DNA from: Acidobacteriota bacterium
GTDB taxonomy: Bacteria > Acidobacteriota > Vicinamibacteria > Vicinamibacterales > UBA2999
Direction of reading: 5' to 3'
DNA: 33,578 bases
Assembly (NCBI GenBank): GCA_021731095.1
Contig: JAKFYA010000022.1
Location: forward strand, 1 to 33,578
In this document: piece by piece, positions 6,895-23,813 of the stretch
Numbering within the stretch: position 1 is the stretch's first letter
Layout of the letters: every line of letters starts with the position of its first letter
The notes under the pieces: generated by a model
The model's input: only the letters and a program-made list of their open reading frames with translations
What the model was told of the DNA's origin: nothing
Database searches by the model: none
Position numbers and translations under genes: made by a program

Positions 6895-6921
6895 GCGCCC
6901 GTGCTAGCCTTGTCGCGGCGC

Positions 6922-8181
6922 ATGAGGGTCTCTATCGTGGTCCTGGGTGATCTGGGCCGCAGTCCCCGGATGGTGTATCACGCGCTTGCGCTGGCCGCAC
7001 GCGGTGTCTCCGTAGACCTGATTGGCTATGAGGGGAGCCTACCACGGGCGGTGGTTGGCGAGCCCCACATCACCTGTCACGTCCTGGGTGGGTCGGTCAC
7101 TCGCGGCCCAGAGTCAGCCGCCTCTGAACCCCGGCATCCCTGGCGTGCCCATGTGACCTGGCTGGCGCAGGCCGCGTCCCGCGCGCTCCGGCTCTGCTGG
7201 CATCTGCCTGTCGTCCTGCTGATCCGGACGCCACGGCCGGACGTGGTGCTGGTGCAGAGCCCGCCGGCGGTGCCGGTCCTCGCCATCGCCTGGCTGAGTG
7301 CCAGACTCCGCGCCGCGCGGCTCATCATCGACTGGCACAACCGCGGCAGCAGCCTGGTGGCGCTCCGTCTCCATCCGGGCCATCCGGTCGTCCGTCTGGT
7401 GGATGGCTGGGAGCGCTTCTGGGGTCGGCGGAGTGACGGGGGGCTCTGTGTCTCCGCTGCGCTGCAGGCGCATCTGACTGAAGGCGGGCTGGCTCGCGTC
7501 CACGTCTTCCGCGACAGACCGGCAGCGCGCTTCCGGCCGCTCTCCGCGGACGAGCGGGCGCCAGTGCAGGCGCGGGTGCTGGGCGCTGTCTGCGACCGTC
7601 TGGTCGTGGTGCCGAGCAGCTGGAGTCCGGATGACGACTTCGACCTGCTGCTCGCGGCGTTGAGCCACTTTGCGCAACGCGCGGACGACTGCATTCAGGC
7701 GGGCGCCTCGGTTCCGCCGGTCACCGTGGTGCTGACGGGAGATGGCCCGCTGCGAGCCAGGTACGAAGGCCGCTTTGACGCCCTGCAGTCCGACCAACTG
7801 CGCGTGCTGGTCCGCTGGTTCTCGCCCGACGACTACGCCGCGCTGCTGGGCACAGCCGACCTGGGCATCAGCGTGCACCGGTCTGCCTCGGGGCTCGACC
7901 TGCCGATGAAGGTGTGTGACCTGCTCGGCGCGGCCGTTCCCGTCTGCGCGCTCGACTATGGGCCGTGCCTGGCTGAACTGGCCAGGGCCGATGGCGGGTG
8001 CCTGCTGTTCCAGACCGCTGAGGACCTGGCGGCGCGGCTCGTCGGGCTACTCGGTGACGACGAGCCGTCACGCGCGCGGCTCGGCCACCTGCGAACTGCC
8101 GCGGCGGCCGCCTCCGCGCAGCGGTGGGAGGACGGGTGGGCCCAGGACGCCTGGCCCCTGTTGCACGACGCATCCCTGTAG
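6922..8181 (+). CDS. ALG1-like (GT33) glycosyltransferase, putative polyprenyl-PP-chitobiose beta-mannosyltransferase
   Basis: ATG at 6922; LGDLGRSPRMVYHALALA, IIDWHNRGSS, VVVPSSWSPDDDFDLLLAAL, WFSPDDYAALLGTADLGISVHRSASGLDLPMKVCDLLGAAVPVCALDY correspond along the whole protein to recalled eukaryotic ALG1 blocks. ORF 6421..8181 in the track is over-extended. Confidence 0.85.
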   Translation: MRVSIVVLGDLGRSPRMVYHALALAARGVSVDLIGYEGSLPRAVVGEPHITCHVLGGSVTRGPESAASEPRHPWRAHVTWLAQAASRALRLCWHLPVVLLIRTPRPDVVLVQSPPAVPVLAIAWLSARLRAARLIIDWHNRGSSLVALRLHPGHPVVRLVDGWERFWGRRSDGGLCVSAALQAHLTEGGLARVHVFRDRPAARFRPLSADERAPVQARVLGAVCDRLVVVPSSWSPDDDFDLLLAALSHFAQRADDCIQAGASVPPVTVVLTGDGPLRARYEGRFDALQSDQLRVLVRWFSPDDYAALLGTADLGISVHRSASGLDLPMKVCDLLGAAVPVCALDYGPCLAELARADGGCLLFQTAEDLAARLVGLLGDDEPSRARLGHLRTAAAAASAQRWEDGWAQDAWPLLHDASL

Positions 8182-8196
8182 AATCGCAGGGCTCTC

Positions 8197-10002
8197 ATGC
8201 GTCTTCCCCGCGACTATTACGTCAGCGTCCGTCGCCGCTTCGCCCTGCTCACGCCGCAGGAACGATGGTGGTGGCTCTCGTGCCTTCCGCTCGGTGTGGT
8301 GACGGCGGCGCTCGAGACCGTGAGTGGCCTGTTGATCTTCGCGTTGATGGGAACGCTGCTGGGCTCGTCGGGTGGTCGTATCGGGGCGGTGCTCGGAAGC
8401 CTGCTGTCGGGCGTCGGCATCGGCGTCAGCGCCAGGAGTCTCACCGCGTTGTGCGCCGCCATCTACATCGGCAAGAACGTGGTCTGGATGGTGGCCACCT
8501 TCTACCGGTCGCGGGTCATGGCCGCCCTGGGCGCCAGCCTGTCAGACCGCTTCATCCGGGCCTATCTGACGGCGCCGTACGCCTTCCACCTCCGCCGGAA
8601 CTACACGGACACCGCCTATGGCTTCACCAGCGGCGTGCCGGCCATCGTGCACATGCTCGAAGCTTTGGTGACCCTGGTGACCGAGTTGCTCGTGGTCGCC
8701 GGGCTGTCCGTGGTGCTGATGCGCGTGGCTCTGGTCGAGACGCTGACCGCTGCGGGCATCATCGCCCTGTCGGTGCTGGCCTTTTCGTGGCTCACAAAGG
8801 GACGATTCCAGGTGCTCGGCGAGCGCCACGCGACACTCGGTGGGGAACTCGACCGACAGGTGCTCCAGGCCCTGGCCGCCTTCCGTGAAGTCACGGTCTT
8901 TGGCCGGGTCCTCACGTTCGCAAGGCGGATTACTGAGGTGGATGCCAGGCGCGTCGCCGCCGCCATGGACTTTGCCGCGCTTGAGGCCGCTCCACGGCTC
9001 TGGACCGAGACGGCCTTCATCCTCGGGCTGGCCGGTCTCGTCCTGACGCTCGACGTCTCCTCGCTCTCGCTCCAGACCGTCCTTCCGTTTATCGGGCTGT
9101 ATGCCTATGCAGGATTCAGGCTCATCCCCGCCGGCCATCGGCTGTCGTATCAACTCAACCGGATCCGGTTCGAGGTGGCGGCCAGCGAGGCGCTGTGTCG
9201 GGATATGGAGCGTCTGGTCCCTGTCGCAGTCGCCAAGCCGACGGGTCCGGCGGAGCGGCGGAGCCCGCACGCATGGCGGTCCCTGACCCTCACGGGCGTA
9301 TCGTTCGCCTATGAATCGACGGATCGCCTGGTGTTGTCCGATATCAGCCTGTCTGTGGCGCAAGGAGACTGTCTCGCGGTCGTGGGCGCCACGGGCGCCG
9401 GCAAGTCCACGCTGGCCGATCTGATCATGGGGCTGCTGGTGCCGACATCAGGCGCGGTCCTGGTGGATGGTGTGTCCATTCACGACGACCTGCCGTCCTG
9501 GCAACGCCATATCGGGTACGTGCCACAGGCGCCCTATCTGCTCGATGACACGCTCGGACGGAATATCGCCTTTGGTGTGGTGGACGAGGAGGTGGATGCG
9601 GCGGCGCTCGCGGCTGCCGTGGAGGCGGCCCAGCTTGGGTCGCTCGTGGCCTCGCTGCCAGACGGACTGAATACCGTCATCGGTGACCGCGGGACCCGGC
9701 TCTCCGGCGGTGAACGGCAGCGGGTCTCGATTGCCCGTGCCCTCTATCGGGACGCCAGCCTCCTGGTGCTGGATGAGGCCACCTCAGCGCTCGATCCCGG
9801 TACCGAACGCGCTCTCACCGAGGCCATTGATGACTTGCGGGGACGCACGACGCTCCTCGTGATTGCGCATCGTCTCAGCACGATCGAACGGGCAGACCGC
9901 CTGATCGTCCTCAACGAGGGTCGCATCGAGGCGGTGGGCACCTACGCAGAACTTCGGGACACCAGCGCCGTCTTCCGGGCCATCTCGGCTCTCGACGCCT
10001 GA
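8197..10002 (+). CDS. ABC transporter with fused permease and ATPase, PglK/MsbA-like lipid-linked oligosaccharide flippase candidate
   Basis: 601 aa; N-terminal membrane domain with YAYAGFRLIPAGHRL; Walker A GATGAGKS, IGYVPQAPYLLDDTLGRNIAFG, LSGGERQRVSIARALY, LLVLDEATSALD. Confidence 0.88.
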   Translation: MRLPRDYYVSVRRRFALLTPQERWWWLSCLPLGVVTAALETVSGLLIFALMGTLLGSSGGRIGAVLGSLLSGVGIGVSARSLTALCAAIYIGKNVVWMVATFYRSRVMAALGASLSDRFIRAYLTAPYAFHLRRNYTDTAYGFTSGVPAIVHMLEALVTLVTELLVVAGLSVVLMRVALVETLTAAGIIALSVLAFSWLTKGRFQVLGERHATLGGELDRQVLQALAAFREVTVFGRVLTFARRITEVDARRVAAAMDFAALEAAPRLWTETAFILGLAGLVLTLDVSSLSLQTVLPFIGLYAYAGFRLIPAGHRLSYQLNRIRFEVAASEALCRDMERLVPVAVAKPTGPAERRSPHAWRSLTLTGVSFAYESTDRLVLSDISLSVAQGDCLAVVGATGAGKSTLADLIMGLLVPTSGAVLVDGVSIHDDLPSWQRHIGYVPQAPYLLDDTLGRNIAFGVVDEEVDAAALAAAVEAAQLGSLVASLPDGLNTVIGDRGTRLSGGERQRVSIARALYRDASLLVLDEATSALDPGTERALTEAIDDLRGRTTLLVIAHRLSTIERADRLIVLNEGRIEAVGTYAELRDTSAVFRAISALDA

Positions 10003-10033
10003 GCCGCGCTCACCCGACTGCGTTCGGGGCTCA
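10000..10033. terminator. Possible bidirectional terminator hairpin between convergent genes
   Basis: TGAGCC (10000-10005) / GGCTCA (10028-10033) with inner CCGA (10014-10017) / TCGG (10024-10027); unpaired asymmetric segment, no U-tract. Confidence 0.3.
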
Positions 10034-11029
10034 ACGGGGCCACAGCCGTCGCCCCAGCTGCCTGAGGCCCGGGCTGGCCACTGGGCGCAGCGCCCGTGCG
10101 CACGTTCGCCTGACGGCGGCAGCCCAGCCAGGCCGCGTGTCCGGGTAGGCCTCGAAAGTAAGGTCGCGGGGCGGCCTCGGGGACAGGTCTGGCGTGCTGA
10201 GCCACTGGTGAAGCTCCCGATGCATGAAGGGAAACAACTGATGCTCGGTGAGAATGCGCCGCCGCGCGTCCGCAATGGCCTCCAGGCGGGTTGACCAGGT
10301 ATCGCTCATCGCGATGGCACGCACCTGCTCCGGTGCCTCGGGGTCACGGATGTCAATGCGGATGAAGGCCTCTGCCGGAATCCACCGCTCCAGTGCCGTG
10401 CACCCGTAATAGAGCGGCAGCGTCCAGGCCAGCAGGGCGTCGACGACCTTCTCCGTCCAGTAGTACGGGTTGACGTGGTTCTCGATGGCCAGGGTGTACC
10501 GGTACGGCGCCAGACCGTCCCACTTGTCCGGAATCTCGCGGATGCCGCGGCCATACAGGTCCAGTTCGACGCGCGCGGCCTGGAGTCGGGTGAGAAACCG
10601 GCGCCGGTCGTCATGGCCGGGTACCAGGGCCGCCGTGCTGGTGATCCAGGAGAGCCCGCGCGGCTTGTCTGGACAGGGCATGGCGATCAGGTCGTCATAG
10701 GTCCGTGTGACCCGCCAGGGCAACGCGCCGTGTGAGGCCACATACCGCGGGCCGAGCCTGGTGGGGTCCTGCATGTAGATGCGCGAATAGGCCGGCAGGC
10801 CCGCATGGAGGCCGAGGCGATGCGCGACAGGAGGTTCTCCGATGATGGCCCAGACACGGTCCGGTGAGCACCGGACGCGCACCGGTTCGGCGGCGTGGTT
10901 CAGGACCAGGACGTGGTCGCAGACCTCGACCGGCTCTTCCGTGAACGTGATGTCCTGCCACTGGAACGAGCCGCCCGGCGTCTGGCGACCGAGATCGGGA
11001 TAGTCCCATTTGATGATCCGGACCAGCAT
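10031..11029 (-). CDS. Glycosyltransferase family 10 (fucosyltransferase-like)
   Basis: 332 aa; C-terminal KWDGLAPYRYTLAIENHVNPYYWTEKVVDALLAWTLPLYYGCTALERWIPAEAFIRIDI matches the GT10 fucosyltransferase core pattern. Confidence 0.85.
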   Translation of the reverse strand: MLVRIIKWDYPDLGRQTPGGSFQWQDITFTEEPVEVCDHVLVLNHAAEPVRVRCSPDRVWAIIGEPPVAHRLGLHAGLPAYSRIYMQDPTRLGPRYVASHGALPWRVTRTYDDLIAMPCPDKPRGLSWITSTAALVPGHDDRRRFLTRLQAARVELDLYGRGIREIPDKWDGLAPYRYTLAIENHVNPYYWTEKVVDALLAWTLPLYYGCTALERWIPAEAFIRIDIRDPEAPEQVRAIAMSDTWSTRLEAIADARRRILTEHQLFPFMHRELHQWLSTPDLSPRPPRDLTFEAYPDTRPGWAAAVRRTCARALRPVASPGLRQLGRRLWPR

Positions 11030-11077
11030 GCGAGGCCCGACTGTATCACCCGCGCGGCGGGCGCACCGTCGCTGGCG

Positions 11078-12121
11078 CTACCGGTCCGTTGACGGGCGCG
11101 TGGGCATGTCTCCGTCGAGCGCGTAGGCCGCCGACAGCTGACGCGCGACGGCCGTGGCGATTTGCGGCGGCATCCAGACGCCAGGGGGGCCGACGTGCAC
11201 CTGATCACCGAAGGCGTCCATCGGCAGATAGAGGATGGGCTCGGCAAAGACGCCGTCGGCGTCCCTCCACGGCCGGCTTGCGGGCGACGGCGAGGCGAGC
11301 ACGCGCAAGGTGCCGCCCCGTGCCCGACACAGCGCCTGCATGCGCGCCAGGTAATGCTCGGCTACTGGGGCCAGCACGACGTCCGTCACCCGGTCCGGCC
11401 CCGGGAAGTGAACCGTTGCGAAGCGGCCGCCGGCAAGCAGACTGATCCATCGCAGCAGTGGCTCGGCTGGCACCTCCGGTTCGGCCGGGGCCACCGTAGG
11501 TGCGATGGTCAGGTCCCGCCTGGAGAACAGAGGGCGTACGAGCTGATACGGCACCTGCCGCCAGGCGCTGTTGATGGCCATGGTGCCGGGGAGGAGCCAG
11601 CGTCCGACGTGGATGGCCGTCAACCGGACATCACGCTTGACCGAGAAGACCTCGGCCACGTGCCGCCGGGTGTGGAAGAGGCTGCAGAAGAAGTCGCTGG
11701 CCACTGGCGGCTCGAGGTTCACCTGGAGTGTCTCTGGACGCACCAGGAGAACCGCGTCCTGTGCCCGCGGACATTGCCGGAAGGTCTCCTCAAGCAGGTA
11801 GTAACTGCCGGCGATGGAGAGGCCCCCGTTCGAGGTGAGAAAGCGCACGCGGCCATTGGGCTCCGAGCCGGGAGGAAAGAACTGGCGGGCCACGCTGTCG
11901 CCGAGATACACGCGTTCGACTAGTGGACCAGGCTGACTGGCCAGAGCCGGCAACCGGTAGACATCACGTTCGAGCAGACTCTGTCCGCCGGTCGCTTCGA
12001 TCCGTCGCGTGGCCTGGGCATCAAAGATCGCCAGCAGGACGGCGAGTCCGACGCCGAAGAGGACGCACGTGCGCAGGAAGCGGCGCAGGGCGACAGGGGT
12101 GGTGACGGATGGGTCGGACAG
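11078..12121 (-). CDS. Membrane-anchored SGNH-like protein (paralogue of 19365..20333); putative glycan O-acetylation/esterase partner
   Basis: GDSVARQFF (SGNH block I-like) and a C-terminal DQVHVGPPG (D..H, block V-like). Track ORF starts at a TTG (11953), but reading upstream in frame gives LRRFLRTCVLFGVGLAVLLAIFDAQATRRIEATGGQSLLERDVY, homologous to the paralogue's N-terminus; the extended start is non-ATG and uncertain (CTG at 12121 used here). Confidence 0.65.
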   Translation of the reverse strand: MSDPSVTTPVALRRFLRTCVLFGVGLAVLLAIFDAQATRRIEATGGQSLLERDVYRLPALASQPGPLVERVYLGDSVARQFFPPGSEPNGRVRFLTSNGGLSIAGSYYLLEETFRQCPRAQDAVLLVRPETLQVNLEPPVASDFFCSLFHTRRHVAEVFSVKRDVRLTAIHVGRWLLPGTMAINSAWRQVPYQLVRPLFSRRDLTIAPTVAPAEPEVPAEPLLRWISLLAGGRFATVHFPGPDRVTDVVLAPVAEHYLARMQALCRARGGTLRVLASPSPASRPWRDADGVFAEPILYLPMDAFGDQVHVGPPGVWMPPQIATAVARQLSAAYALDGDMPTRPSTDR

Positions 12122-12204
12122 GTCAGATCCTCGCGGTCGTCAACACTACCATGCAGGTCTGTCGATGGACGCCACCGCGACAGACGCGGTACGCTCACCG
12201 GGCC

Positions 12205-13386
12205 GTGTCGAGCCCCGCACCTGCGTCTCCCGCGAGCCCACTGGAGCACCGCAGGCGTCGCCTGCGCGTGGCGATGCTGGGCTATCCCGGCCAGCGTGTG
12301 TCGGCCGGCGGCCTGATCTATGACGCCACAGTGCTCACGGGCCTGCGCGAGCTGGGCGTGGTCGTGGATGAACTGCCGGTGCCCTGGTTCGGCTTCGGCT
12401 ATGCCCGCGGGCTGGCCGGCAATCTCCTGACACTTCCGACGCTGACAGACTACGACGTCGTCCTGCAGGATGAGATGGTGCACCCGTCGATGGTGTGGCG
12501 GAACCGGCGCATCCGACGGGCTGGAATCCCGGTCGTCGCGCTGGTGCACAACCTCACCTGGCGCCAGCATGACGGTCTACGGCGACGCCTGGCTCGTGGC
12601 GTTGAACGTGCCTACCTGCGTGGCGTGGACGGTGTGATTGCCGTGTGCGCCAGCACCCAGGACGACGTGGTGCTGACGAGCGGGGTGGGCAGACCGACCG
12701 TGGTCGCCCACGCCGGTCGTATCGAGGCGACCGGCAGGCCCAACGAGGCCGATGTCACGGCCAGGGCCACGGCGCCAGGCGCGCTGCGGCTGATTTCGGC
12801 TGGCGTCGTGGTCCCACACAAGGGCGTCCACCGTCTGCTGGACCTGGTGGCCGCCATGCCGGCCGGAAGGGTCACCCTGGATGTCGTGGGGAGGCAGGCC
12901 GAGGCACCTGCCTACGTACGGGCGCTCCGGGCGCGCATCACGGCGGCCGGGCTGGACGCGACCGTGCGGCTGCACGATGAGGTCGACAGACAGCGGCTCA
13001 GTGCGATGTTCGCCAACAGTCACCTCTTTGTCCTCGGGTCGGAGCGGGAGGCCTACTCACTCGCGGCGCTCGAGGCCCTGGGGGCCGGACTCCCCTGCCT
13101 GCTGCCCGACGCGGGGGGCTCGGGAGAGCTTCTCGGCGTCGAAGGGAGACCCGGACGAACAGACGGCACGCCTGCTGGTGTTGCAGGCCTGACGCTTCCG
13201 GTGGGCGACACGGAGGCCTGGGTGCGCGTGGTCTCGGAATTCGCAGCCGACCGGACACACCTGGCGCGGTGCGCGCTGGCCGCGTTGGCGCGACATCAGG
13301 CGCACGGCACCTGGCGCGAGACAAGCCAGGCGGTGTACGAGCACCTGCACGCGATTGTGGATGGTTGGTCGCAGCCCAGGTTCTAA
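12205..13386 (+). CDS. Glycosyltransferase family 4
   Basis: RVAMLGYPGQRVSAGGLIYDATVLTGLRELG; LISAGVVVPHKGVHRLLDLVAAM; FVLGSEREAYSLAALEALGAGLPCLLPDAGG (EX7E region). Start uncertain: GTG 12205 favoured over ATG 12109. Confidence 0.85.
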   Translation: MSSPAPASPASPLEHRRRRLRVAMLGYPGQRVSAGGLIYDATVLTGLRELGVVVDELPVPWFGFGYARGLAGNLLTLPTLTDYDVVLQDEMVHPSMVWRNRRIRRAGIPVVALVHNLTWRQHDGLRRRLARGVERAYLRGVDGVIAVCASTQDDVVLTSGVGRPTVVAHAGRIEATGRPNEADVTARATAPGALRLISAGVVVPHKGVHRLLDLVAAMPAGRVTLDVVGRQAEAPAYVRALRARITAAGLDATVRLHDEVDRQRLSAMFANSHLFVLGSEREAYSLAALEALGAGLPCLLPDAGGSGELLGVEGRPGRTDGTPAGVAGLTLPVGDTEAWVRVVSEFAADRTHLARCALAALARHQAHGTWRETSQAVYEHLHAIVDGWSQPRF

Positions 13387-14303
13387 TCCAGCCTGGGTGC
13401 CCAGTACGAGCCCGGCCTGATGCCCAGCCTTCGCCCCAGCAGCAGCACAGCACCACCAGCGTTCCGCACCAGCGCGCCAGCCCGGCGCCGGTCTGCCTGA
13501 CAGAACCCGGATGTCAGGTCGGGCGTCTCGGCGCCAGCCGCCCTGGCGCGCAGCCGGGCCGCCGAGCAGACGCGACAGGGACAGGGCCTGTCCTCGGTGA
13601 TCGTGGTGGCAAACGCGGCATTGGGTACCGCCTCCGGACGGGTCAGCGCGTGCAGCCGGAGGTGCACGCGTGTGGCGTACCCGGTTGCGGTGTCGGCCGG
13701 CATCCGGATGGGAAGGGCAAAGCGCAGCAGCCGTCGCGCCGCGTCGCGCGTGAGGAAGTAGGCATAGGCGCCCTGCGCGTACTCGACCGTCCGTGCCACG
13801 CGCACGCCTGGCGCCAGCGCCTCGCTGGCAAACGTGGTCAGCGCGCCGTGATCATGGGTGACCGGCGCGCCAGGGATCCACGGGCGGCGGCTGGAGTGGT
13901 GTCCGACGAACACCAGATCAAAGCGTCCGCTCGACGCCCCCAGCGCTCGCAGGAGTACCGGCAGACGCGGGCTCAGGTCCACGTCGTCTTCGAGGATCAA
14001 CGCGCCCGCGTGGGGACCCGCCGCCAGCCGCTCCCAGAGCGCGGCGTGGCTGAGGGCGCAGCCGATCTCGCCGCCGGTCAGGCGTCGCCCGAGCCAGGGT
14101 TGAACCTGGAGTGCCTGGTTGCCAGCCAGCTGCCGCACGGCCTCGTCGTCCAGTCCGTGGCCGTTGATCGCCTCGACCCGCTCGAACGGGACCCCGAGGC
14201 GCGTCAGCTGGGTCGCCATGTGCTGCATCCGTGCAGTCGAGGCGGCCAGATTCAGCACCCAGACGGGCAGGTCAGAACTGGAAATAGATGAAGCTGCGTC
14301 CAC
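13383..14303 (-). CDS. Glycosyltransferase family 25 (LPS-type) protein
   Basis: LPVWVLNLAASTARMQHMATQLTRLGVPFERVEAINGHGL; LTGGEIGCALSHAALWERLAAGPHAGALILEDDVDLSP is characteristic of GT25. GTG start overlaps the MBOAT gene end. Confidence 0.88.
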   Translation of the reverse strand: MDAASSISSSDLPVWVLNLAASTARMQHMATQLTRLGVPFERVEAINGHGLDDEAVRQLAGNQALQVQPWLGRRLTGGEIGCALSHAALWERLAAGPHAGALILEDDVDLSPRLPVLLRALGASSGRFDLVFVGHHSSRRPWIPGAPVTHDHGALTTFASEALAPGVRVARTVEYAQGAYAYFLTRDAARRLLRFALPIRMPADTATGYATRVHLRLHALTRPEAVPNAAFATTITEDRPCPCRVCSAARLRARAAGAETPDLTSGFCQADRRRAGALVRNAGGAVLLLGRRLGIRPGSYWAPRLD

Positions 14304-15732
14304 CGAGATCTCCCATCCAGAGAATGACGAGGATCAGCGCGTAGTAGGCCGGCCAGCGCACCCAGACTGGTGCGGCGTCCCAGCGCCGCACGGCCTCGTG
14401 TCGCGCACCCAGGTGCTCCACGCCCAGCATCAGGGCGATCAGCAGGCCGGCAATCAGGAGGTGCCCTTCGCGTGAGAGCGAGAACATGCGGAGGATATGG
14501 TCGGGATCCGGGCAGGCAAACAGGGGGCCCGTGCCAAGGCGGGCCAGCAGGGCCGCCGCGTCGCCGAGGGAGGCGGCCCTGAAGAAGAGCCATGCGAACG
14601 CGACGAGCTGAAAGGTGACGACCATGGCCAGACCCCTGCGCACCGCTGGATGCCGGTCAAGGCCCGTGAGGCCCGCCACGCGGTCACGCGTGGTCGAGGT
14701 CAGCCGCGCGACGACCAGATAGAGGCCGTGCAGCGCTCCCCAGACCACATAGGTCCAGTTGGCGCCGTGCCAGAGGCCGCTGAGGACAAACACGACCGCG
14801 ACGTTGCGGAGGGATGCCAGTGGTCCGACCCGACTGCCTCCCAGAGGAATGTAGACATAGTCGCGGAACCAGGACGACAGTGAGATGTGCCAGCGGCGCC
14901 AGAACTCCTGCACCGAGCGCGACTCGTAGGGACGATCGAAGTTGAGCCCGAGGTCAATGCCCAGCACGCGGGCCGCACCGATGGCCGTATCGGAATAGCC
15001 GGAGAAGTCGCAGTAGATCTGGATGGCAAAGAGCCAGGTGGCCACCACGACCCAGCCGCCGCCGTAGTCGCCCGGTGTCTTGTAGACCAGATCCACGATG
15101 AGCGCCATGCGGTCTGCGATCACCATCTTCTTGAAGAGGCCCCAGAGCATCAGGCGAAGGCCGTCAAAGACGCGGTCAGGGTCGAAGCGCTGGGGCGTCC
15201 GGAATTGCGGCAGCAGATGCGCGGGGCGCTCGATCGGTCCGGCGACGAGCTGAGGATAGAACAGCACGTACAAGGCATAGAGGCCGAGGTGACGTTCTGC
15301 GGGGAACCGGCGCCGGTAGACCTCGATGGTGTAGGCCATCGACTGGAACGTGTGGAAGGAGAGGCCGACGGGCAGGACCCAGGCGAGCACGGTCAGGTCG
15401 TAGTGCCAGTGGAGCGCCGTGGCCACAGTCCGGATGTTCTCGTTGAAGAACGCGGCGTACTTGAACGCGCCAAGGATGCCCAGGTTGGCGGCGAGACTCA
15501 CGACGAGCAGCAGGCGCCGCCGGGTGCCCTCTGCCGCCTCGATCAGGCGAGCGGCCGTGTAGTCGACCAGGATCACACCCAGCAGGACGAGCAGGAAGCG
15601 CGGGATGAAGCTGGCGTAGAAGAGCGCGCTCACCGCCAGCAACATGGCCCAGCGGACGCGGTGCGGCAGGACGAAGTACAGCGCGGTGGTGACCGGGAAG
15701 AAGATCAGGAACGAGAGCGAATTGAAGAGCAT
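14272..15732 (-). CDS. MBOAT family O-acyltransferase (AlgI/PatA-like)
   Basis: 486 aa; MLFNSLSFLIFFPVTTALYFVLPHRVRW; CDFSGYSDTAIGAARVLGIDLGLNFDRPYESRSVQEFWRRWHISLSSWFRDYVYIPLGGSR; GLWHGANWTYVVWGALHG (catalytic His region). Confidence 0.95.
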   Translation of the reverse strand: MLFNSLSFLIFFPVTTALYFVLPHRVRWAMLLAVSALFYASFIPRFLLVLLGVILVDYTAARLIEAAEGTRRRLLLVVSLAANLGILGAFKYAAFFNENIRTVATALHWHYDLTVLAWVLPVGLSFHTFQSMAYTIEVYRRRFPAERHLGLYALYVLFYPQLVAGPIERPAHLLPQFRTPQRFDPDRVFDGLRLMLWGLFKKMVIADRMALIVDLVYKTPGDYGGGWVVVATWLFAIQIYCDFSGYSDTAIGAARVLGIDLGLNFDRPYESRSVQEFWRRWHISLSSWFRDYVYIPLGGSRVGPLASLRNVAVVFVLSGLWHGANWTYVVWGALHGLYLVVARLTSTTRDRVAGLTGLDRHPAVRRGLAMVVTFQLVAFAWLFFRAASLGDAAALLARLGTGPLFACPDPDHILRMFSLSREGHLLIAGLLIALMLGVEHLGARHEAVRRWDAAPVWVRWPAYYALILVILWMGDLGGRSFIYFQF

Positions 15733-15767
15733 GTCCGGGGGCGTCTGGCCGCAACGATAATACGCGG

Positions 15768-16991
15768 TCAGAGCAGAGGCGGCGCGCTGAGGAGGGCCAG
15801 ATCTTCTTCGCTCAATGTCCGGTTCGCCACCCGGCGGTAGTGCGCGCGCAGCAGGCGCGCCGTCGAGTCCCAGGAAAATGCGGACGCCCGGCTCCGTCCT
15901 CGCGTGGCCAGCGTGGCACGCAGCCCGTCGTCCAGCCAGACCCGTGCAATCGCGGCGGCCATGGCCGTGGTGTCCACGGGATCGAAGAACAGGGCCGCCT
16001 CGCCCGCCAACGACGGAAGCGACGTGACGGCCGCGCAGGCCAGGGGTGTACCAGCTGCGAGACTCTCCAGGACCGGCAGCCCGAAACCCTCGAAGCGTGA
16101 GGGAAAAACCACCGCGCGCGCGAGGTGGTACAGGCTCCGCACCTCATCCGGGGCGACGTGACCGAGCTGGCGCACCTGGGACGTCAAGGCACGATCCACG
16201 ATGCGTGCGTCAATGAGGCGGCCATGTGACGTCGGCAGACCGCAACAGACCAGGGGCACACGCAGGCCCTCCCGGTCTCTCAGATGGACCAGCGCCTCGA
16301 GCAGGCCGAGGTGATTCTTGTGGGGCCAGGTCGCCGCCGGGCAGAGCAGGAAAGCGTCGGGGAGCGCCAGTCGCTGGCGAACGGCTGCCAGCGTCGAGTC
16401 GTCCGGGCGCACGCCCGCGTCATCGGGCGGCGCATTCGGCACCACCACGACGCGGTCGTCCGGAAGGGGGTAGGCGTTGAGAAGGTCACGTCGTCCCCAA
16501 CTGCTCAGGGCGATCACCGTGTGCGCCGCCGTGCAGAACTGCCGGTAGTGCGCCGTCCGCTCGGCCAGTTCCGTGGGTCGAAAGCAATCGGGCAGGTGCA
16601 GATGCTGGAGATCGTGGGGCTGGTAGAGGCTTGGCACGTCCGTGAGGAAGGCGGACTGCACGGAGAAGTGCATCACGTCGATACCTGCCCGTTCGATCGT
16701 GCCGTCGGAGCGAGGCACGTAGGCCCAGGATGGGCCCAGTCGCGCGCGCGCTCGCCGGACGAACGCCCGCACGCGCCGTCCACGGCGTGGCGGCGGGGCC
16801 AGGAGGGGTCGGCAGGAGCCGCCCAGGAGAGGCCGAATCCATCCGCCGGCCTCGGGTGTGATGAGGAAGTGGTACTCCTCGGGGCCCTCAAGCGCCGACA
16901 GGGCCGAGGCCAGGCCGGCCATCACCTGCTGCACCCCGCCATGCTGGCCGTCATGGAGGCGCGCGTCGAGGCAGACCCGGAAGGGTGACAC
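15768..16991 (-). CDS. Glycosyltransferase family 4 (mannosyltransferase-like)
   Basis: GTG start at 16991 (VSPFRVCLDARLHDGQHGGVQQVMAGLASAL); CPAATWPHKNHLGLLEALVHL; VFPSRFEGFGLPVLESLAAGTPLACA. Confidence 0.9.
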   Translation of the reverse strand: MSPFRVCLDARLHDGQHGGVQQVMAGLASALSALEGPEEYHFLITPEAGGWIRPLLGGSCRPLLAPPPRRGRRVRAFVRRARARLGPSWAYVPRSDGTIERAGIDVMHFSVQSAFLTDVPSLYQPHDLQHLHLPDCFRPTELAERTAHYRQFCTAAHTVIALSSWGRRDLLNAYPLPDDRVVVVPNAPPDDAGVRPDDSTLAAVRQRLALPDAFLLCPAATWPHKNHLGLLEALVHLRDREGLRVPLVCCGLPTSHGRLIDARIVDRALTSQVRQLGHVAPDEVRSLYHLARAVVFPSRFEGFGLPVLESLAAGTPLACAAVTSLPSLAGEAALFFDPVDTTAMAAAIARVWLDDGLRATLATRGRSRASAFSWDSTARLLRAHYRRVANRTLSEEDLALLSAPPLL

Positions 16992-17019
16992 ACGAAAACG
17001 CTATCATGCTGCCCATCGC

Positions 17020-17793
17020 ATGACCGACCCGGCGCGACTTTGCATCGTCACCAGCGTGGCGCCCCATCGCGTGGTCGCCCAGCAGCGGGCGGTGGCGAGC
17101 TGGAAGCGGCTCGGTGCTGAGGTGCTGTCCCTGAATGCGGCAGACGAGCTCCGTCTCCTGGCTCCGCAGTTTCCCGAGGTGCAATTCCTGCAGGCTGCGC
17201 GTGATGCGCAGACGTTTCTGGGGCGGCCGTGCGTGTTCATCCGTGACCTGATGCAGGCGGCTGCCGGGAGCGGCGCGACCGTGTGCGGTGTGGTGAACAG
17301 TGACATCGAGCTGATCGATGCGCCGGGCCTGCGCGCGATGCTGGACGCGCAGACGCGCGACGCCCTCGTCATTGGCGCCCGCGTCGACTACGTACAGGGC
17401 CAGCGCGAGCAGGGCACCGTCTATCCCCTCGGGTACGACTTCTGCTTCTTCAGTCCTGATGCAGTGGCGGTAGTGCCGGACGAACCGTACTGTCTCGGCG
17501 CGCCCTGGTGGGACTACTGGCTGCCGGCCGTCTGGCTGGACGCGGGGCGCCCGTTGAGGCGTCTCGTGTCACAGGTGGCCTGGCATGAGCGGCACCCGGC
17601 GGCCTACCGCCCATCGCACTGGATGATGTATGGCGGACTGATGTCCGGGCGATTGATTGACGTCGGGCGGCGGCCGTCACTCTTCCCCAGGTCGATCAAT
17701 GGGGGGAAGGATCTGATCGCAAGAACAGAGCGGCTGGCGCGCGCGTTACAGGAGCAAATCGAGCGTCGGGCCGAAACCCTCATCTGGCCATGA
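17020..17793 (+). CDS. Uncharacterised protein, possibly GT-A-fold glycosyltransferase-like
   Basis: ATG at 17020 (MTDPARLCIVTSVAPHRVVAQQRAVASWKRLGAEVLSLNAADE); VVNSDIELID has a possible D-x-E motif; YDFCFFSPDAV and LGAPWWDYWLP. Function inferred from context. Confidence 0.6.
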   Translation: MTDPARLCIVTSVAPHRVVAQQRAVASWKRLGAEVLSLNAADELRLLAPQFPEVQFLQAARDAQTFLGRPCVFIRDLMQAAAGSGATVCGVVNSDIELIDAPGLRAMLDAQTRDALVIGARVDYVQGQREQGTVYPLGYDFCFFSPDAVAVVPDEPYCLGAPWWDYWLPAVWLDAGRPLRRLVSQVAWHERHPAAYRPSHWMMYGGLMSGRLIDVGRRPSLFPRSINGGKDLIARTERLARALQEQIERRAETLIWP

Positions 17794-19316
17794 GTGTGAC
17801 GGAGGGGCCCGTTCGCCGACGCGCGACGGCCGCTATGGTGATGGCGGCAATCTGCCTGTTGCCGCTGGCTGGTCTGAAGGCGGTGTCTCTGGGACTGGTT
17901 GCCACGCGGGACATCCGGCAGCTTGTCGTGCCGTGGATGGGAGGCCCGGCGACATCGGTTGCGGGCCTGATGCTGGTTGGGCTGATGGCCACGTGTGTCC
18001 CGCTCGCGCTTGGCGCGCCGCTCGCACGGACGTCCTGGCCCGCCCGCTGGTGGGCGGGCTTCCTGGCGGCCGGTACGCTGCTCGTGGGTCTGTATGCCGC
18101 GGGCGTGGGACGTGGCCTCAGCGTGTCCATCGGCGCCGTGGCAGCGGCCGGGGTCGCTGCGGCGTGGGTGCGCAGGGACGGTTGGCCGGTGGCGCGTTCC
18201 CGCGTCGAGCCTGGACACGTACTTCTGGGTGCGGTGATGGCCGGGTTGCTGGTGGCCGCGATGGCGCACACGCTGGCGGGACCCACCATGGCCTGGGACG
18301 CCGTGGCTGTCTGGTTGCCAAAGGTGCGTGGCCTTGCGTCGGGGGCTTCGCTGGCGGAGCTGGCGCGCCCGACCTATCCCCCGCTGGGTGCAATGGTCTG
18401 GTCCGTGGCGGCATCGGTCGGCGGAAGTGAAGCAGCAGGTCGTGGCGTGCTGGCGGCGGCGGCCCTCGTGGCGCTGCTGGGGCTGACCGACCTGGTGCCG
18501 GGCCGGTTGACACTGGCGATCAGCGTGCTCGTCTCGGCCGTGGCCGTCGTGTTCTTCGGCCTCGACGCGTTTACCAATGGTTATCAGGACGCGCTGCTGG
18601 CGGCGGCGGCTGGCATGAGCGCCGTGGCGCTGATCGTGTCGTTCGACCAGGCCACTGACGCCGTGTCACGGTGCCGGCATGCGGCACGTGGCCTGGCGGC
18701 CGCGGGCGCACTGGGGCTCATCAAGAGCGAGGGGGCCGTCTTCGGCGCGTGTCTCATGCTGGCCTATCTCCTCGTGTCACTGGCCTGGACTGCACGCGGG
18801 GACTGGCTCGGCCTGTTGCGCGCCCTCCGCCTTCCGCTCGCGGGCTATGCCGGTGTCGGACTTCTCTGGCCCGTCGCTTTGCTGGTGCATGGCTTTCCTG
18901 TATTCGAGCGACAGGAGGGCACGTTCTCGGCGGCTGGTCTGCTGGCCGTGCCGTGGCGCCTCGCCGATCGTCTTCCGACCATCGCGTCAGCCATGGCGGC
19001 ACTGCTGGGAGACGGGAGGCGCCTGACGCTGCTTGCGGCCGTGGCCCTGGCCGCGAGCGCCGCCGTGCCTGGCCTCTGGCGGCATGGCGCTCCACGAGCA
19101 CATCGGGCGGTGCAGTTTCTCGGAGTGGTCAGCCTGTTCCATCTGCTGTCTGTGATCGTGATGTTTCTGGCGACGGAGGCCCCACTGGCCTGGCATCTCG
19201 ACACCGCACTCCTGCGCCTGTTGCTGCACCTGCGGTGGATCGTGGCGGCTATCGTGGTCGTGGTCGGTGTGGAGGTCATCCGCATGGCCGGAGGCGAGGC
19301 GTCCTCACGCCGCTGA
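17790..19316 (+). CDS. Polytopic membrane protein, putative GT-C-type glycosyltransferase
   Basis: 508 aa with many hydrophobic segments; AWDAVAVWLPKVRGLASGASLAELARPTYPPLGAMVW resembles the WDA..W..K....YPPL pattern of bacterial GT-C-like proteins; ATGA overlap with 17020..17793. Confidence 0.6.
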   Translation: MSVTEGPVRRRATAAMVMAAICLLPLAGLKAVSLGLVATRDIRQLVVPWMGGPATSVAGLMLVGLMATCVPLALGAPLARTSWPARWWAGFLAAGTLLVGLYAAGVGRGLSVSIGAVAAAGVAAAWVRRDGWPVARSRVEPGHVLLGAVMAGLLVAAMAHTLAGPTMAWDAVAVWLPKVRGLASGASLAELARPTYPPLGAMVWSVAASVGGSEAAGRGVLAAAALVALLGLTDLVPGRLTLAISVLVSAVAVVFFGLDAFTNGYQDALLAAAAGMSAVALIVSFDQATDAVSRCRHAARGLAAAGALGLIKSEGAVFGACLMLAYLLVSLAWTARGDWLGLLRALRLPLAGYAGVGLLWPVALLVHGFPVFERQEGTFSAAGLLAVPWRLADRLPTIASAMAALLGDGRRLTLLAAVALAASAAVPGLWRHGAPRAHRAVQFLGVVSLFHLLSVIVMFLATEAPLAWHLDTALLRLLLHLRWIVAAIVVVVGVEVIRMAGGEASSRR

Positions 19317-19364
19317 TCGTGAGGGGGCGCCGCGCGTGACCCCCAGGCCGACCAGCGGCGCCTG

Positions 19365-20333
19365 TCACCGGCTCGATGGAAGCCCGGACGGCGTGATGAG
19401 TCTGGCGGGATGGCCTGGCGCTTCGCAGGCCCCATCGGCGGGTTCAGTGGCGAGCGGCAAGGCGGCGAGGAGTCCGTACTGTGCGGCGTAGGCCCTGGCG
19501 ATGCCGGTTCCCAGGCATCCCCTGGCGCCCTGGCCTGCAGCGCCGACATGGATACCGTCCCCCAGCGCATCGTGGTTCACATACAGCAGCTCTGCATCGA
19601 AGTGCCGCATCGGGTCGGTCCAACGCCGGTCATCGGGCAGAGGTGCCGCGAGCACGCGCACCGAGCCGCCATGGCTCCGGGCCAGGTCACGCAACCGAGC
19701 GAGATAGTGCCGTCCTACCAGAGATAACCTGACAGTCCCCACGGTGTCTGCCGGCACCCGGGCGAATGGATCCATCGCCAGGCGTGTGTCGAGACTGCGT
19801 GGCGGTTGTCGCCACGCCGCATTGGTGGCCAGCAGGCCTGGCATCAGCCACCGGGCCACCTGGGGGAGAGTGATAGCCGGATTGTGCTGAAGCCACCAGA
19901 CCTCGGCCATCTGGGCCGGGGTGTGGAAGAAGCCGCTGAAGTAGGTGACCGCCGAGGCAGCATCGAGCGTGCCTCGCAGCGTTTCAGGACGGCAGATGAC
20001 GACGATGTCCCGTGCGCGCGGACATGCCCGGAACGCGTCCTCAGCCAGGTAGTAGAAGCCCGCCATCGTGATGGCGGCATTGGTCGTGAGGAAGCGGACC
20101 TGCCGGCTCGGCTCTCGTCCGGTCGGAAAGAACTGGCGCGCCACGCTGTCGCCGATGATCAGCTGGGTGACCGAGGTATCAGGCGTGCGGGCGTGGGTCA
20201 GTGCCGTGTAGACCTCACTGCCGATGAGGTTGCGACCTCCCGCGCCGTCAATCCGGGCCCGCAGGCCTCTGTCGACGGTGGCGACGAGCAACACGAGCGT
20301 CAGGATGAAGCGCGTCGCGGTCCACGTGGTCAC
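19365..20333 (-). CDS. Membrane-anchored SGNH-like protein (paralogue of 11078..12121)
   Basis: GTG start at 20333 (VTTWTATRFILTLVLLVATVDRG) gives an N-terminal TM; IIGDSVARQFFPTGREPSRQVRFLTTNAAITMAGFYYLAEDAFRACPRARDIVVICRPETL; DGIHVGAAG near the C-terminus. Confidence 0.7.
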   Translation of the reverse strand: MTTWTATRFILTLVLLVATVDRGLRARIDGAGGRNLIGSEVYTALTHARTPDTSVTQLIIGDSVARQFFPTGREPSRQVRFLTTNAAITMAGFYYLAEDAFRACPRARDIVVICRPETLRGTLDAASAVTYFSGFFHTPAQMAEVWWLQHNPAITLPQVARWLMPGLLATNAAWRQPPRSLDTRLAMDPFARVPADTVGTVRLSLVGRHYLARLRDLARSHGGSVRVLAAPLPDDRRWTDPMRHFDAELLYVNHDALGDGIHVGAAGQGARGCLGTGIARAYAAQYGLLAALPLATEPADGACEAPGHPARLITPSGLPSSR

Positions 20334-20355
20334 GTGCGGTATCCTACCGCTCCTC

Positions 20356-21603
20356 ATGGACACGCCGGGCCGCAGGCTCACCATCGCCCTCCTGCATCTC
20401 GACCTCGGCTTCGGTGGGGCTGAGCGGCTCATGCTTGACGCCGCGCTGGAGCTGGGGGCGCTCGGCCACCGGACCGCGCTGTTCACCAGTGCCATGAATC
20501 CGGCCCGGACCTTTGACGACGCGACGAACGGTTGTGTGGACGTACGCGTCCGGGTGTCCCGGTTACCCGCGGCTATCGCACGTCGCGTGCGGGTGCCGTG
20601 TGCCGTGGTCAGGATGGCCGGACTGGCTGCGGCGGCCCGGCGTGAGCTGGCGCCCGACCTGGTGCTGTGCGACCTGGTGCCGCAGGCGATCGCCGCTGTG
20701 CGTCGTCTCGCGCGGGCACCGGTCCTCTTCTATTGCCACTACCCCGACGCGTTGCTGGCGCCGCCAGGCGGTGTGGCCTATCGCCTGTATCGCTGGGGAC
20801 TCGACGCGCTGGAACGGCAGGGCATGGGATGCGCGGACGGACTGGCCACCAACAGCCAGTTCACCAGGCGTGCCATGGGTCTGCAGATGCCGCGCCTCGC
20901 GGCTGACGCCGTCCCGGTGGTCTATCCCGGCGTCGACCTGATGCGCTTCGGGCAGCTGCCGCCCGTGCCCGAGGCCTGGTCCGACGGTGACGAGGTGGTC
21001 GTGGCGTCGGTGGGACGTTTCCACCCCGACAAGGATCATCCGCTCGCCGTGTCCGCATTCGCCGCCCTTCTGCGGCAAGTCCCTGACACGCTCCGGCGGC
21101 GGCTACGCCTCGTGATCAGCGGGGGCCTCGATGCCACCAGACCCGAAGAGCAACAGGTGCGCGCCGCCCTGGCCGAGCGCATTCGTGCCTACGGGCTCGG
21201 CGCCCAGGTGGCTCTGCTCGTGTCGCCGACGGATGCGGCGCAGCGGGAGCTGATGGCTCGCGCGTCACTGGTCCTGCACACGGCACCGGCCGAGCACTTC
21301 GGGATGAGCCCGGTTGAGGCGATGGCGGCCGGGCGTCCCGTGGTGGCCGTCGCCCGCGGGGGACTGCTGGAAACGATTCGTGATGGCGAGACCGGCTTTC
21401 TCCGAGAGCCGACGGCAGAGGCCCTGGCAGGCGCGCTGGCCACCGCGTGCGCCGAGCCGGCGATGGTGGTTCGCATGGGACGACAGGCACGCGTGGATGC
21501 GCAGGTCCGCTTCAGCCGGCAGCGCTTCGGCCAGCAGCTGCACGAGTCGGCGCTGGCCGCGTTCGACCGTGGTGCCACAGGCCACCGGCCTTACGGCGTG
21601 TAG
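20356..21603 (+). CDS. ALG2-like GT4 glycosyltransferase (putative alpha-1,3/1,6-mannosyltransferase)
   Basis: ATG at 20356 (MDTPGRRLTIALLHLDLGFGGAERLMLDAALELGALGH); VLCDLVPQAIAAVRRLARAPVLFYCHYPDALL; ADGLATNSQFTRRAM; VYPGVDLMRF; HFGMSPVEAMAAGRPVVAVARGGLLETIRDGETGFL. Blocks correspond to recalled eukaryotic ALG2. Confidence 0.85.
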   Translation: MDTPGRRLTIALLHLDLGFGGAERLMLDAALELGALGHRTALFTSAMNPARTFDDATNGCVDVRVRVSRLPAAIARRVRVPCAVVRMAGLAAAARRELAPDLVLCDLVPQAIAAVRRLARAPVLFYCHYPDALLAPPGGVAYRLYRWGLDALERQGMGCADGLATNSQFTRRAMGLQMPRLAADAVPVVYPGVDLMRFGQLPPVPEAWSDGDEVVVASVGRFHPDKDHPLAVSAFAALLRQVPDTLRRRLRLVISGGLDATRPEEQQVRAALAERIRAYGLGAQVALLVSPTDAAQRELMARASLVLHTAPAEHFGMSPVEAMAAGRPVVAVARGGLLETIRDGETGFLREPTAEALAGALATACAEPAMVVRMGRQARVDAQVRFSRQRFGQQLHESALAAFDRGATGHRPYGV

Positions 21604-23813
21604 GCGAAGACCCGGACGAGGGGCGGCCCACCGGGGCGGGTGCTTTCGTCATGGACAGGCTGGAAGCGGACCAGCGCATCGAGCGGGACCGCCGACTCTC
21701 CAGGCTCCAGCCCGACCAGGGCGTGCCTGCCTGGACCACGGGACCGGAGCTGCGCCTCGGCCGCTTCGTAGGTGGCGTAGCGATCCAGTCTGGTGATCTC
21801 TTTGTAGGTGCGGCCGTCACGACCGGTTCGCTCCACCCAAGTCACCACCCAGGAGCTGTGGCGAGGCTGGACGGCCCGACCGGCAAAGGTCTGGAGGTGG
21901 ACCGCCATCGACCGGTAGTACGCCGGATGGAAGACCCAGGTGCGGACCAGCGTGCCTCCGCCGGTCTTCTGGTACATCGGCTCGGCAAAGTCCGCCGCGC
22001 TCAGACCGACGAGTGCGGGCATGCCGAGGAGTCGCCCGCGGAGGCGGCCGTCGGCGCCGTCGCTGGTCCAGCGCATGGCCATGTCGTCATCGACCATGAC
22101 GTACCGCGCGCGCTTGGCGTCCATCCACGCATGGGCCGCCACCGGCGTGACTGACGTGAAGAAGGCGGCCGCCTGGTCGGCGCCCTCCTGGGTGCCGTTC
22201 GACATGGGGACCCGATGCGCCAGTGCGGTGATCCAGTAGCCTTGGTCCCAAAAGGCCATCACGCTGTACTGTGCCCGTGGCATCGCGTCGGCGTCGTACC
22301 GCGCCAGGTACAGGTCTCCCTGAGGAAACGGCTCGGGTGAGTGCGTGCGCAGCCATGTCAGGGCCTGCCACCAGGCCGGGGTCGGCCCTGAATCCCGACT
22401 CGCCGTGGCGACGGCTTCCGGCAACGTTGGCGCGACGAGCACGGCCAGCGCGAGCGGAGCGCCCAGCAGGTGCCAGCGTGAGGGTCTGGCCCGGGCTGTC
22501 CACCAGGCGAGGACGCCGGCGGCCGCGGCACCGGTGAAGAGGGCGAGCATGGGTGCCAGGTAGTAGCCGAAGCGCGTCGCCTTGAAGGTCGCGGCCAGGA
22601 CCCAGAACAGCCAGACCCCGAGCAGGAGCCTGTCTGGCTCTCTTCGTCGCCAGGCACGCCACGAGACCGTGGCAGCGGCAGGAATTCCCAGCAGGAATGG
22701 CGCGCCAAACATCGACAGGGGCGCGGTCAGGGATAGCCGGTCTCCCGGCCAGAGCAGTGGCCGCAGCTCGAGAATGGACGAAGGGGCACCGCCCGGGCGC
22801 AGCCGGGCGAGGTCGACGAGCCAGTGACGACCCAGGTCCGGCATGGCCAGCGCGATGAGTCCACAGCCGGCCACGCCCAGTCCCAGGGGGAGCACCAAGA
22901 CGGTGGCGCGTGGCCACCCGCGGCGCGCAGTCTGGTCCGCGAGGGCGACGAGCAGGGCGGCGAACAGGGCCACTGCGACGAGGGACGAGACCTGGAGGCC
23001 CCATCGATCGAGCTGGCGGGGCTGGAAGGCGAGCACAAGTGTCAGCGCTGACAGACCGGTCCTGCTCACGCCAAGGCCCAGCACCCGTACGTCGGCCCAG
23101 GCTGGCGCCTGGCGCCAGGCCCAGGTCAGGACCCAGACGGCCAGGGCGCCCAGCAGAAAGGGCGCGCTGGTCCAGGAGAGGTAGTAGGCGCCCAGGCCAC
23201 ACCCGGCGAGCCACCACGGGATGGCCCGGGTCGGGTCCGTCACGGCGCGACAGAGAGCCAACAGCGTAGCCTCCACCAGCACCACCTCCAGGACGTGGTG
23301 GTCGGTGAATCCAAGCTGGGTCCGTTCAAGGAAGGGCCCAGGCATCAGGGCCATCAGCGCGGCGGTGAACAGGCCGGCCTGTCGGCCGAACACCTGTCGA
23401 CCCAGCAGGTAGCCCAGGCACACCGCGACGACCGCCAGCACAGGGGGGGCCAGGGCCGCCACGGCCTCTACCGTGCCCGTGGCCGGATGGCCGAGTCCAA
23501 TCGCCAGGGCCGCCAGGGCGACCAGAAGGTCGAACAGGGGGGCGATCGCGACATGTTGCCCGTCGATCAGGGCATAGGGGTCAACTGTCAGCCGGTGGGG
23601 GAAGTTGGCCACCAGATGGGTGACCGCCCGGAGGTGGTACCAGCCGTCATCCTGAAACCGGACCCAGCTCCCCCCCATAACCCGGTCCCAGGGCAGCCAG
23701 ACCCGGAGCGCCAGTGCGGCGCTGCACAGGGCGAGCAGGGCGAACCAGGTGCCGGACGACCTCCCGTCCGCGCCGCTCGGGCTCGGGCTCGGGCTTTCAG
23801 CCGGGGACGACAT
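21591..23813 (-). CDS. STT3/AglB/PglB-family oligosaccharyltransferase (GT66)
   Basis: 740 aa; first-loop acidic motif FQDDGWYHLRAV (codons near 23638-23657), second loop GFTDHHVLE (23286-23312), candidate SVSE/TIxE-type motif SSILELRPL (22761-22781), and FWDQGYWI (WDQGYWI at 22230-22250) equivalent to WWDxG, followed by a C-terminal soluble domain. Confidence 0.9.
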   Translation of the reverse strand: MSSPAESPSPSPSGADGRSSGTWFALLALCSAALALRVWLPWDRVMGGSWVRFQDDGWYHLRAVTHLVANFPHRLTVDPYALIDGQHVAIAPLFDLLVALAALAIGLGHPATGTVEAVAALAPPVLAVVAVCLGYLLGRQVFGRQAGLFTAALMALMPGPFLERTQLGFTDHHVLEVVLVEATLLALCRAVTDPTRAIPWWLAGCGLGAYYLSWTSAPFLLGALAVWVLTWAWRQAPAWADVRVLGLGVSRTGLSALTLVLAFQPRQLDRWGLQVSSLVAVALFAALLVALADQTARRGWPRATVLVLPLGLGVAGCGLIALAMPDLGRHWLVDLARLRPGGAPSSILELRPLLWPGDRLSLTAPLSMFGAPFLLGIPAAATVSWRAWRRREPDRLLLGVWLFWVLAATFKATRFGYYLAPMLALFTGAAAAGVLAWWTARARPSRWHLLGAPLALAVLVAPTLPEAVATASRDSGPTPAWWQALTWLRTHSPEPFPQGDLYLARYDADAMPRAQYSVMAFWDQGYWITALAHRVPMSNGTQEGADQAAAFFTSVTPVAAHAWMDAKRARYVMVDDDMAMRWTSDGADGRLRGRLLGMPALVGLSAADFAEPMYQKTGGGTLVRTWVFHPAYYRSMAVHLQTFAGRAVQPRHSSWVVTWVERTGRDGRTYKEITRLDRYATYEAAEAQLRSRGPGRHALVGLEPGESAVPLDALVRFQPVHDESTRPGGPPLVRVFAYTP

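Follow-up and report, generated by a model that had tools for sequence, protein, structure and literature searches.

The best-known bacterial protein N-glycosylation is that of Campylobacter-like species, which have the oligosaccharyltransferase (OST) PglB. Bacterial OSTs of the AglB type have also been noted, and were attributed to transfer from archaea; the same study was unable to identify the nearest prokaryotic kin of Alg1 and suggested that this enzyme may be a eukaryotic innovation (Lombard 2016, PMC4973528). Here we analyzed a stretch of 33,578 nucleotides (contig JAKFYA010000022.1 of assembly GCA_021731095.1, hereafter the window) from a genome of the order Vicinamibacterales (Acidobacteriota), in which an AglB-type OST lies beside glycan-assembly genes that include an ALG1-like glycosyltransferase (GT). 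From the predicted proteins we consider it likely that the window contains a locus for bacterial protein N-glycosylation, where a glycan would be assembled on a lipid carrier, flipped and then transferred to Asn. Our literature search, with subscription literature and preprints outside its reach, returned nothing joining Acidobacteria (with N-glycosylation) or Acidobacteriota to oligosaccharyltransferase.

The OST is encoded by an open reading frame (ORF) of 740 aa at 21591..23813 on the minus strand with its ATG at 23813, exactly where the first-pass annotation of this DNA had placed it, and the plus-strand reading of the interval is interrupted by stops. The product had been called an STT3/AglB-type OST, which was borne out by profiles, PDB search, fold and phylogeny. 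It scored over the cut-offs of PF02516 (STT3; 60.1 bits, cut-off 24.5) and PF22627 (AglB_core; 60.8 bits, cut-off 27), and the NCBIfam model TIGR04154 (archaeo_STT3) covered residues 25-724 with 378.8 bits. The nearest protein in a PDB sequence search was AglB of Archaeoglobus (AfAglB, E 1e-46), and PglB was absent from the matches. An AlphaFold2 model built with 46 sequences (pLDDT 91.9, pTM 0.91) gave AfAglB as the top Foldseek match (7E9S, E 2.8e-31, TM 0.73), followed by STT3A/B (E about 1e-17) and then PglB (E 3e-12). The proposed closeness to archaeal AglB rather than PglB therefore holds by both sequence and fold, with PglB reached by fold only. The 19 best PDB fold matches were all OSTs, i.e. 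the model has the GT-C OST fold and no other fold was recovered. Relatives were obtained by an alignment-based scan of genome contigs; a single-protein scan yielded none, and those from protein search belonged to the same order as the window genome. In a GT66 tree of 61 sequences the 13 acidobacterial OSTs grouped together (SH-aLRT 100), the window protein lying among them on a long branch (SH-aLRT 99), and the archaeal and Chloroflexota sequences fell outside. These data support the assignment of the ORF as an AglB-type OST with predicted transfer to Asn.

Motif invariance was judged across 81 aligned homologues, wherever the column was filled, and clustering of the motifs at the active site from the residues to which they correspond in the crystal structure of AfAglB. 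The motifs picked out in the first-pass annotation, FQDDGWYHLR (residues 53-62), GFTDHHVLE (168-176), SILEL (346-350) and FWDQGYWI (521-528), were all present. D56 in FQDDGW (53-58; 23640..23657, minus strand as for the other motifs) is invariant and aligns with AfAglB D47, the first-loop catalytic/metal Asp; the acidic-loop motif thus stands as regards its catalytic Asp, but "QDD" is found in the window protein only and most relatives have ND or TD. DHH (171-173; 23295..23303) supplies D171 and H173, which align with AfAglB D161 and H163, and E349 in SILE (346-349; 22767..22778), the TIXE motif, aligns with E360. In AfAglB D47, D161 and H163 coordinate the metal, and E360 acts through water (PMC8342417). 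D171, H172, H173, E349, R414, W522, D523 and R534 are invariant as well, and since these columns do not vary among the homologues the motifs represent conserved positions and not chance matches.

WWDYG contributes to the +2 Ser/Thr pocket of OSTs (PMC8342417) and is replaced in the window protein by FWDQG (521-525; 22239..22253), in which F521-W522-D523 align with W550-W551-D552 of AfAglB. W522, D523 and G525 are retained, the first W is changed to F and the Y at the fourth position to Q. Because Q524 is shared with 9 other homologues, including other acidobacterial OSTs (WWDQG), F521 alone is unusual. The W-to-F change noted earlier is a genuine exception, as the position holds W in 79 of the 81 homologues and F in two, the window protein and a protein of Dehalococcoidia (L028, NFWDYGHW). 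This rarity, at a site within the +2 pocket, would fit a weakened OST or a changed specificity, e.g. for another +2 residue; the first-pass annotation had proposed that sequon recognition could be affected. We find a weakened or altered OST quite improbable, as the remaining catalytic positions are intact, F is a conservative replacement and the Dehalococcoidia protein carries the same F in an otherwise canonical site.

To the left of the OST, profile scans and reading of the sequence revealed a glycan-assembly locus of the lipid-linked-oligosaccharide (LLO) type (4811-21603). At its far end lies a WecA/MraY-type polyprenyl-phosphate N-acetylhexosamine (HexNAc)-1-phosphate transferase (PNPT; 4811..5803, minus strand, start approximate), assigned by PF00953 and scoring 112.6 bits with TIGR02380, below the cut-off of that model. 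The neighbouring GT28 protein (5800..6894, minus strand) is by profiles and PDB search a MurG paralogue, and is predicted to be a chitobiose-forming N-acetylglucosamine (GlcNAc) transferase in the role of Alg13/14 or Agl24. It reached about 205.7 bits with TIGR01133 (MurG), below the cut-off of 250.25; a canonical MurG over that cut-off (303 bits) is encoded at another locus of the genome, and for this reason the GT28 in the window seems to be a dedicated paralogue that could attach a second GlcNAc. The ALG1-like (GT33-type) gene (6922..8181, plus strand) is followed by an ABC half-transporter of the MsbA/PglK type with transmembrane and ATPase domains (8197..10002, plus strand). From its profiles and its recurrence beside PNPT and ALG1-like genes this is a predicted LLO flippase, although its scores lie under the cut-offs of both the NCBIfam PglK model (203 bits, cut-off 1000) and the MsbA model (283 bits, cut-off 602). 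At the other end an ALG2-like GT4 gene (20353..21603, plus strand, start approximate), assigned by Pfam and by comparison with ALG2, is arranged tail-to-tail with the OST gene with a 13-bp overlap. The window genome also encodes a GDP-mannose 4,6-dehydratase (434 bits, over cut-off), which implies a pool of GDP-mannose (GDP-Man) and fits the GT10 protein of the locus.

The ALG1 and ALG2 candidates were picked by reading and then compared by blastp (nominal database 1e8 letters). Our human ALG1 reference is not a database record, and it agrees with 10 of 10 published residues (G44, PMC13218555; Q50, S258 and A360, PMC7616334; F394, PMC8286991; N70, S71, K322, G358 and R438, PMC8458739) and with the length of 464 implied by the last of these papers. 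With this validated reference the ALG1-like protein showed 34% identity over 449 aa (241 bits, E 6e-74), i.e. full-length ALG1/GT33 homology beyond generic GT4. It was the only one of 15 locus proteins matched by human ALG1, the other GTs being absent at E 1e-3. In the shuffle control (500 each) the best scores were 25 bits for ALG1 and 27 bits for ALG2. Other acidobacterial ALG1-like proteins gave up to 287 bits with human ALG1, and 51 columns were invariant across 12 ALG1-like sequences including the human one. For the ALG2-like protein the comparison with an ALG2 reference from outside a database (34% over 398 aa, 192 bits, E 4e-56; no other locus protein at E 1e-3) is to be taken as a lead only.

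Sequence does not reveal donor or acceptor, the Pfam and NCBIfam labels of the two proteins are general GT4 only, and in family f5 orphan ALG1-like genes sit among purine-degradation genes. Hence, both proteins could be ordinary bacterial GT4s with a superfamily resemblance to ALG1 and ALG2 and possibly with other donors or acceptors. This is in our judgement rather unlikely, considering that the matches of 241 and 192 bits extend over the whole length while the other GT4s of the locus give none at E 1e-3. Moreover, the best PDB GT4 match of the ALG2-like protein is 55 bits, a PDB search with the ALG1-like protein gave no match at E 0.1, and the GT4s beside archaeal and Chloroflexota AglB reach at most 27 and 44 bits. 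At two of the f5 loci (L130, L132) the ALG1-like gene was seen beside xanthine dehydrogenase-type subunits, allantoicase and amidohydrolases, in a genome without STT3.

PNPT, ALG1-like and OST genes are found together in three further acidobacterial families, one of another class. In G074 (L049, family f10) an ALG2-like gene, a PNPT-GT28 pair divergent from an ALG1-like gene, and an OST gene lie within 7.9 kb, and in the single-contig genome G016 (L128, family f3) the ALG1-like gene is divergent from GT28-PNPT-OST. In G364 (L153, family f78, the other class) a PNPT-ABC fusion is followed by genes for an ALG1-like protein, a GT4, a protein of 645 aa and a WWDYG-bearing STT3; the fusion is one 984-aa ORF (L153:6405-9359, plus strand) that joins PF00953 with PF00664 and PF00005. 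Within the window family (f1) full-length OST and ALG1-like genes occur together in 9 of 30 genomes, singly in none, and both are missing from 21 (Fisher 7e-8, with genomes and not independent events as the unit). In G083 (L014/L019, G083:C54:20832-21530) the OST has a large in-frame internal deletion, with the N- and C-terminal parts in a 261-aa ORF, and the ALG1-like gene is missing too. Outside Vicinamibacterales the ALG1-like gene occurs in only two more acidobacterial families. It is missing from all 23 tested AglB-bearing genomes of Chloroflexota, Nitrospirota and archaea, where the sole match was a generic GT (E 7e-6), and was therefore not visibly co-transferred with AglB from these groups.

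The same recurrence bears on an assembly or binning artefact, in which archaeal or eukaryotic DNA would have been fused with a contig of bacterial origin. With 81% completeness and 5.3% contamination the genome leaves some room for such an event, but prs, rplY, pth, rpsF, rplI, dnaB, alr and radA lie on the right side of the same contig, the OST groups within the clade of acidobacterial OSTs and the same gene cluster is present in independent genomes, one of them a single contig (G016). An artefact is thus hardly credible, and we rejected contamination since recurrence in independent assemblies refutes it in practice.

A further alternative is that a surface polysaccharide (O-antigen or exopolysaccharide) is the product of the glycan genes and that the OST is adjacent by chance and uses a glycan made elsewhere. 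The locus encodes a GT10 fucosyltransferase-like protein (10031..11029, minus strand), a GT25 glycosyltransferase (13383..14303, minus strand) and an MBOAT O-acyltransferase (14272..15732, minus strand), all identified by profile scan and common in polysaccharide loci. In addition, PNPT, ALG1-like and ABC genes are clustered in other members of the window family with the OST elsewhere, as holds for most members (in one tested member a GT4 lies between the clustered genes), and f5 has ALG1-like genes without OST. However, PNPT, ALG1-like and OST genes are kept together in four families, one of another class, the co-occurrence in the window family is 9/9 with both genes missing or broken in G083, and Wzy and WaaL families are absent from the Pfam matches of the locus. 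We therefore hold the polysaccharide alternative to be unlikely.

Several observations weigh against an N-glycosylation locus. The ALG1 and ALG2 references were not taken from a database. Family f5 carries ALG1-like genes in about 22 genomes and no STT3, G067 carries an OST without ALG1-like, and ALG2-like genes are rare (in the window genome G000 and in G074 and G123). In G000 dedicated GDP-Man pyrophosphorylase models gave no clear match. Finally, the score with TIGR04154, an archaeosortase A-associated family, is under the curated cut-off of 450, and the OST is consequently related to that subfamily without belonging to it.

Taken together, the observed homology, intact motifs, fold, conserved neighbourhood and co-occurrence are consistent with N-glycosylation, and suggest the following pathway, in which substrates, linkages, flipping direction, acceptor and reaction are predictions. 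The WecA-type PNPT would put HexNAc-1-phosphate, probably GlcNAc, onto polyprenyl phosphate, and the MurG paralogue would attach a second GlcNAc. The ALG1-like enzyme may then attach mannose, probably beta-1,4, from GDP-Man, giving a predicted glycan of the Man-GlcNAc2 type. ALG2-like and the other GT4, GT10 and GT25 enzymes could extend, branch or fucosylate the chain, and MBOAT and SGNH-like proteins could acylate it. Thereafter the ABC transporter is predicted to flip the LLO, and the OST to move the oligosaccharide to the Asn of N-X-S/T in exported proteins.

The remaining genes of the locus comprise two GT4 glycosyltransferases identified by profile scan (12109..13386, plus strand, and 15768..16991, minus strand), a protein without assignment by sequence reading and profiles (16858..17793, plus strand, true start probably nearer 17000) and a polytopic membrane protein of 508 aa without family match, possibly a GT-C or a polymerase (17790..19316, plus strand). 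A GDS-motif protein, SGNH-like by inspection and without family match (11078..11953, minus strand), is resembled by a second SGNH-like protein found by sequence reading (19365..20495, minus strand, start approximate). These two GDSVARQFFP proteins are related, lack Pfam and NCBIfam matches and share the locus with MBOAT, and might take part in glycan O-acylation.

In four other genomes a protein of the glycosylasparaginase type was seen divergent beside the OST (L140:8632-9747 and L139:8609-9724, both minus strand; also L029 and L038). It belongs to the GlcNAc-Asn amidase family, reaches 178 bits with 1P4K and has a Tat-like signal. As an OST partner it was dropped, because genomes that have no OST also carry it and the window genome does not. 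In the G098 OST (L013 and L018) a predicted loop carries an inserted stretch of SRQEVPSRQEVPSR(H/Q)EVP repeats, the Dehalococcoidia genome W281 has three AglB genes (L026, L030, L084), and Methanoperedenaceae L092 has a tandem AglB pair.

The ALG1-like family is to us the most interesting part, because the prokaryotic relatives of Alg1 had been left undetermined (Lombard 2016). With a concrete bacterial family that shows 34% identity and is genetically linked to an OST, the origin of Alg1 becomes testable by phylogeny and assay. We tentatively suggest, as a possibility that we would not yet call probable, that Acidobacteriota run a eukaryote-like N-glycosylation (GlcNAc2, ALG1-type beta-mannose, ALG2-type mannose, AglB-type OST) and that, among prokaryotes, their ALG1-like proteins are the nearest relatives of the eukaryotic ALG1, whether as source lineage or by an old transfer out of eukaryotes, the comparison of origin and direction resting on a single eukaryotic reference. 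The locus would also be a candidate single-locus source of eukaryote-like N-glycan cores in laboratory E. coli.

An AglB-type OST in bacteria is shared with the STT3s that Lombard (2016, PMC4973528) reported from within the euryarchaeal clade, although Acidobacteria and Chloroflexi go unmentioned there and no prokaryotic Alg1 relative was reported. The window comes from a phylum other than that of the PglB species, and in it an AglB-type OST is embedded in a glycan-assembly locus with ALG1-/ALG2-type enzymes. With AfAglB of Archaeoglobus fulgidus (GT66; 3WAJ, 5GMY, 7E9S) the OST shares the fold, DHH, the TIXE-type and WWDxG-type motifs and the AglB core; it differs in being bacterial, with about 22% identity in structural alignment, in the F at the first WWDxG position and in a shorter C-terminal part (740 vs. 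875 aa). The Campylobacter pgl locus (PglB, PglK, PglC, GTs) follows the same logic of LLO genes, ABC flippase and single-subunit OST together, whereas the window has an AglB-type OST, a polytopic WecA-type initiator, MurG-/ALG1-/ALG2-like GTs and a transporter distant from the PglK model. With the eukaryotic ALG7-ALG13/14-ALG1-ALG2-STT3 pathway it shares full-length ALG1-like and, as a lead, ALG2-like homologues near an STT3 homologue. Here, PNPT and GT28 would take the roles of ALG7 and ALG13/14, the GT28 being a MurG-type single protein with 173 bits to the best PDB MurG, the OST is single-subunit, and GT10, GT25 and MBOAT are extra.

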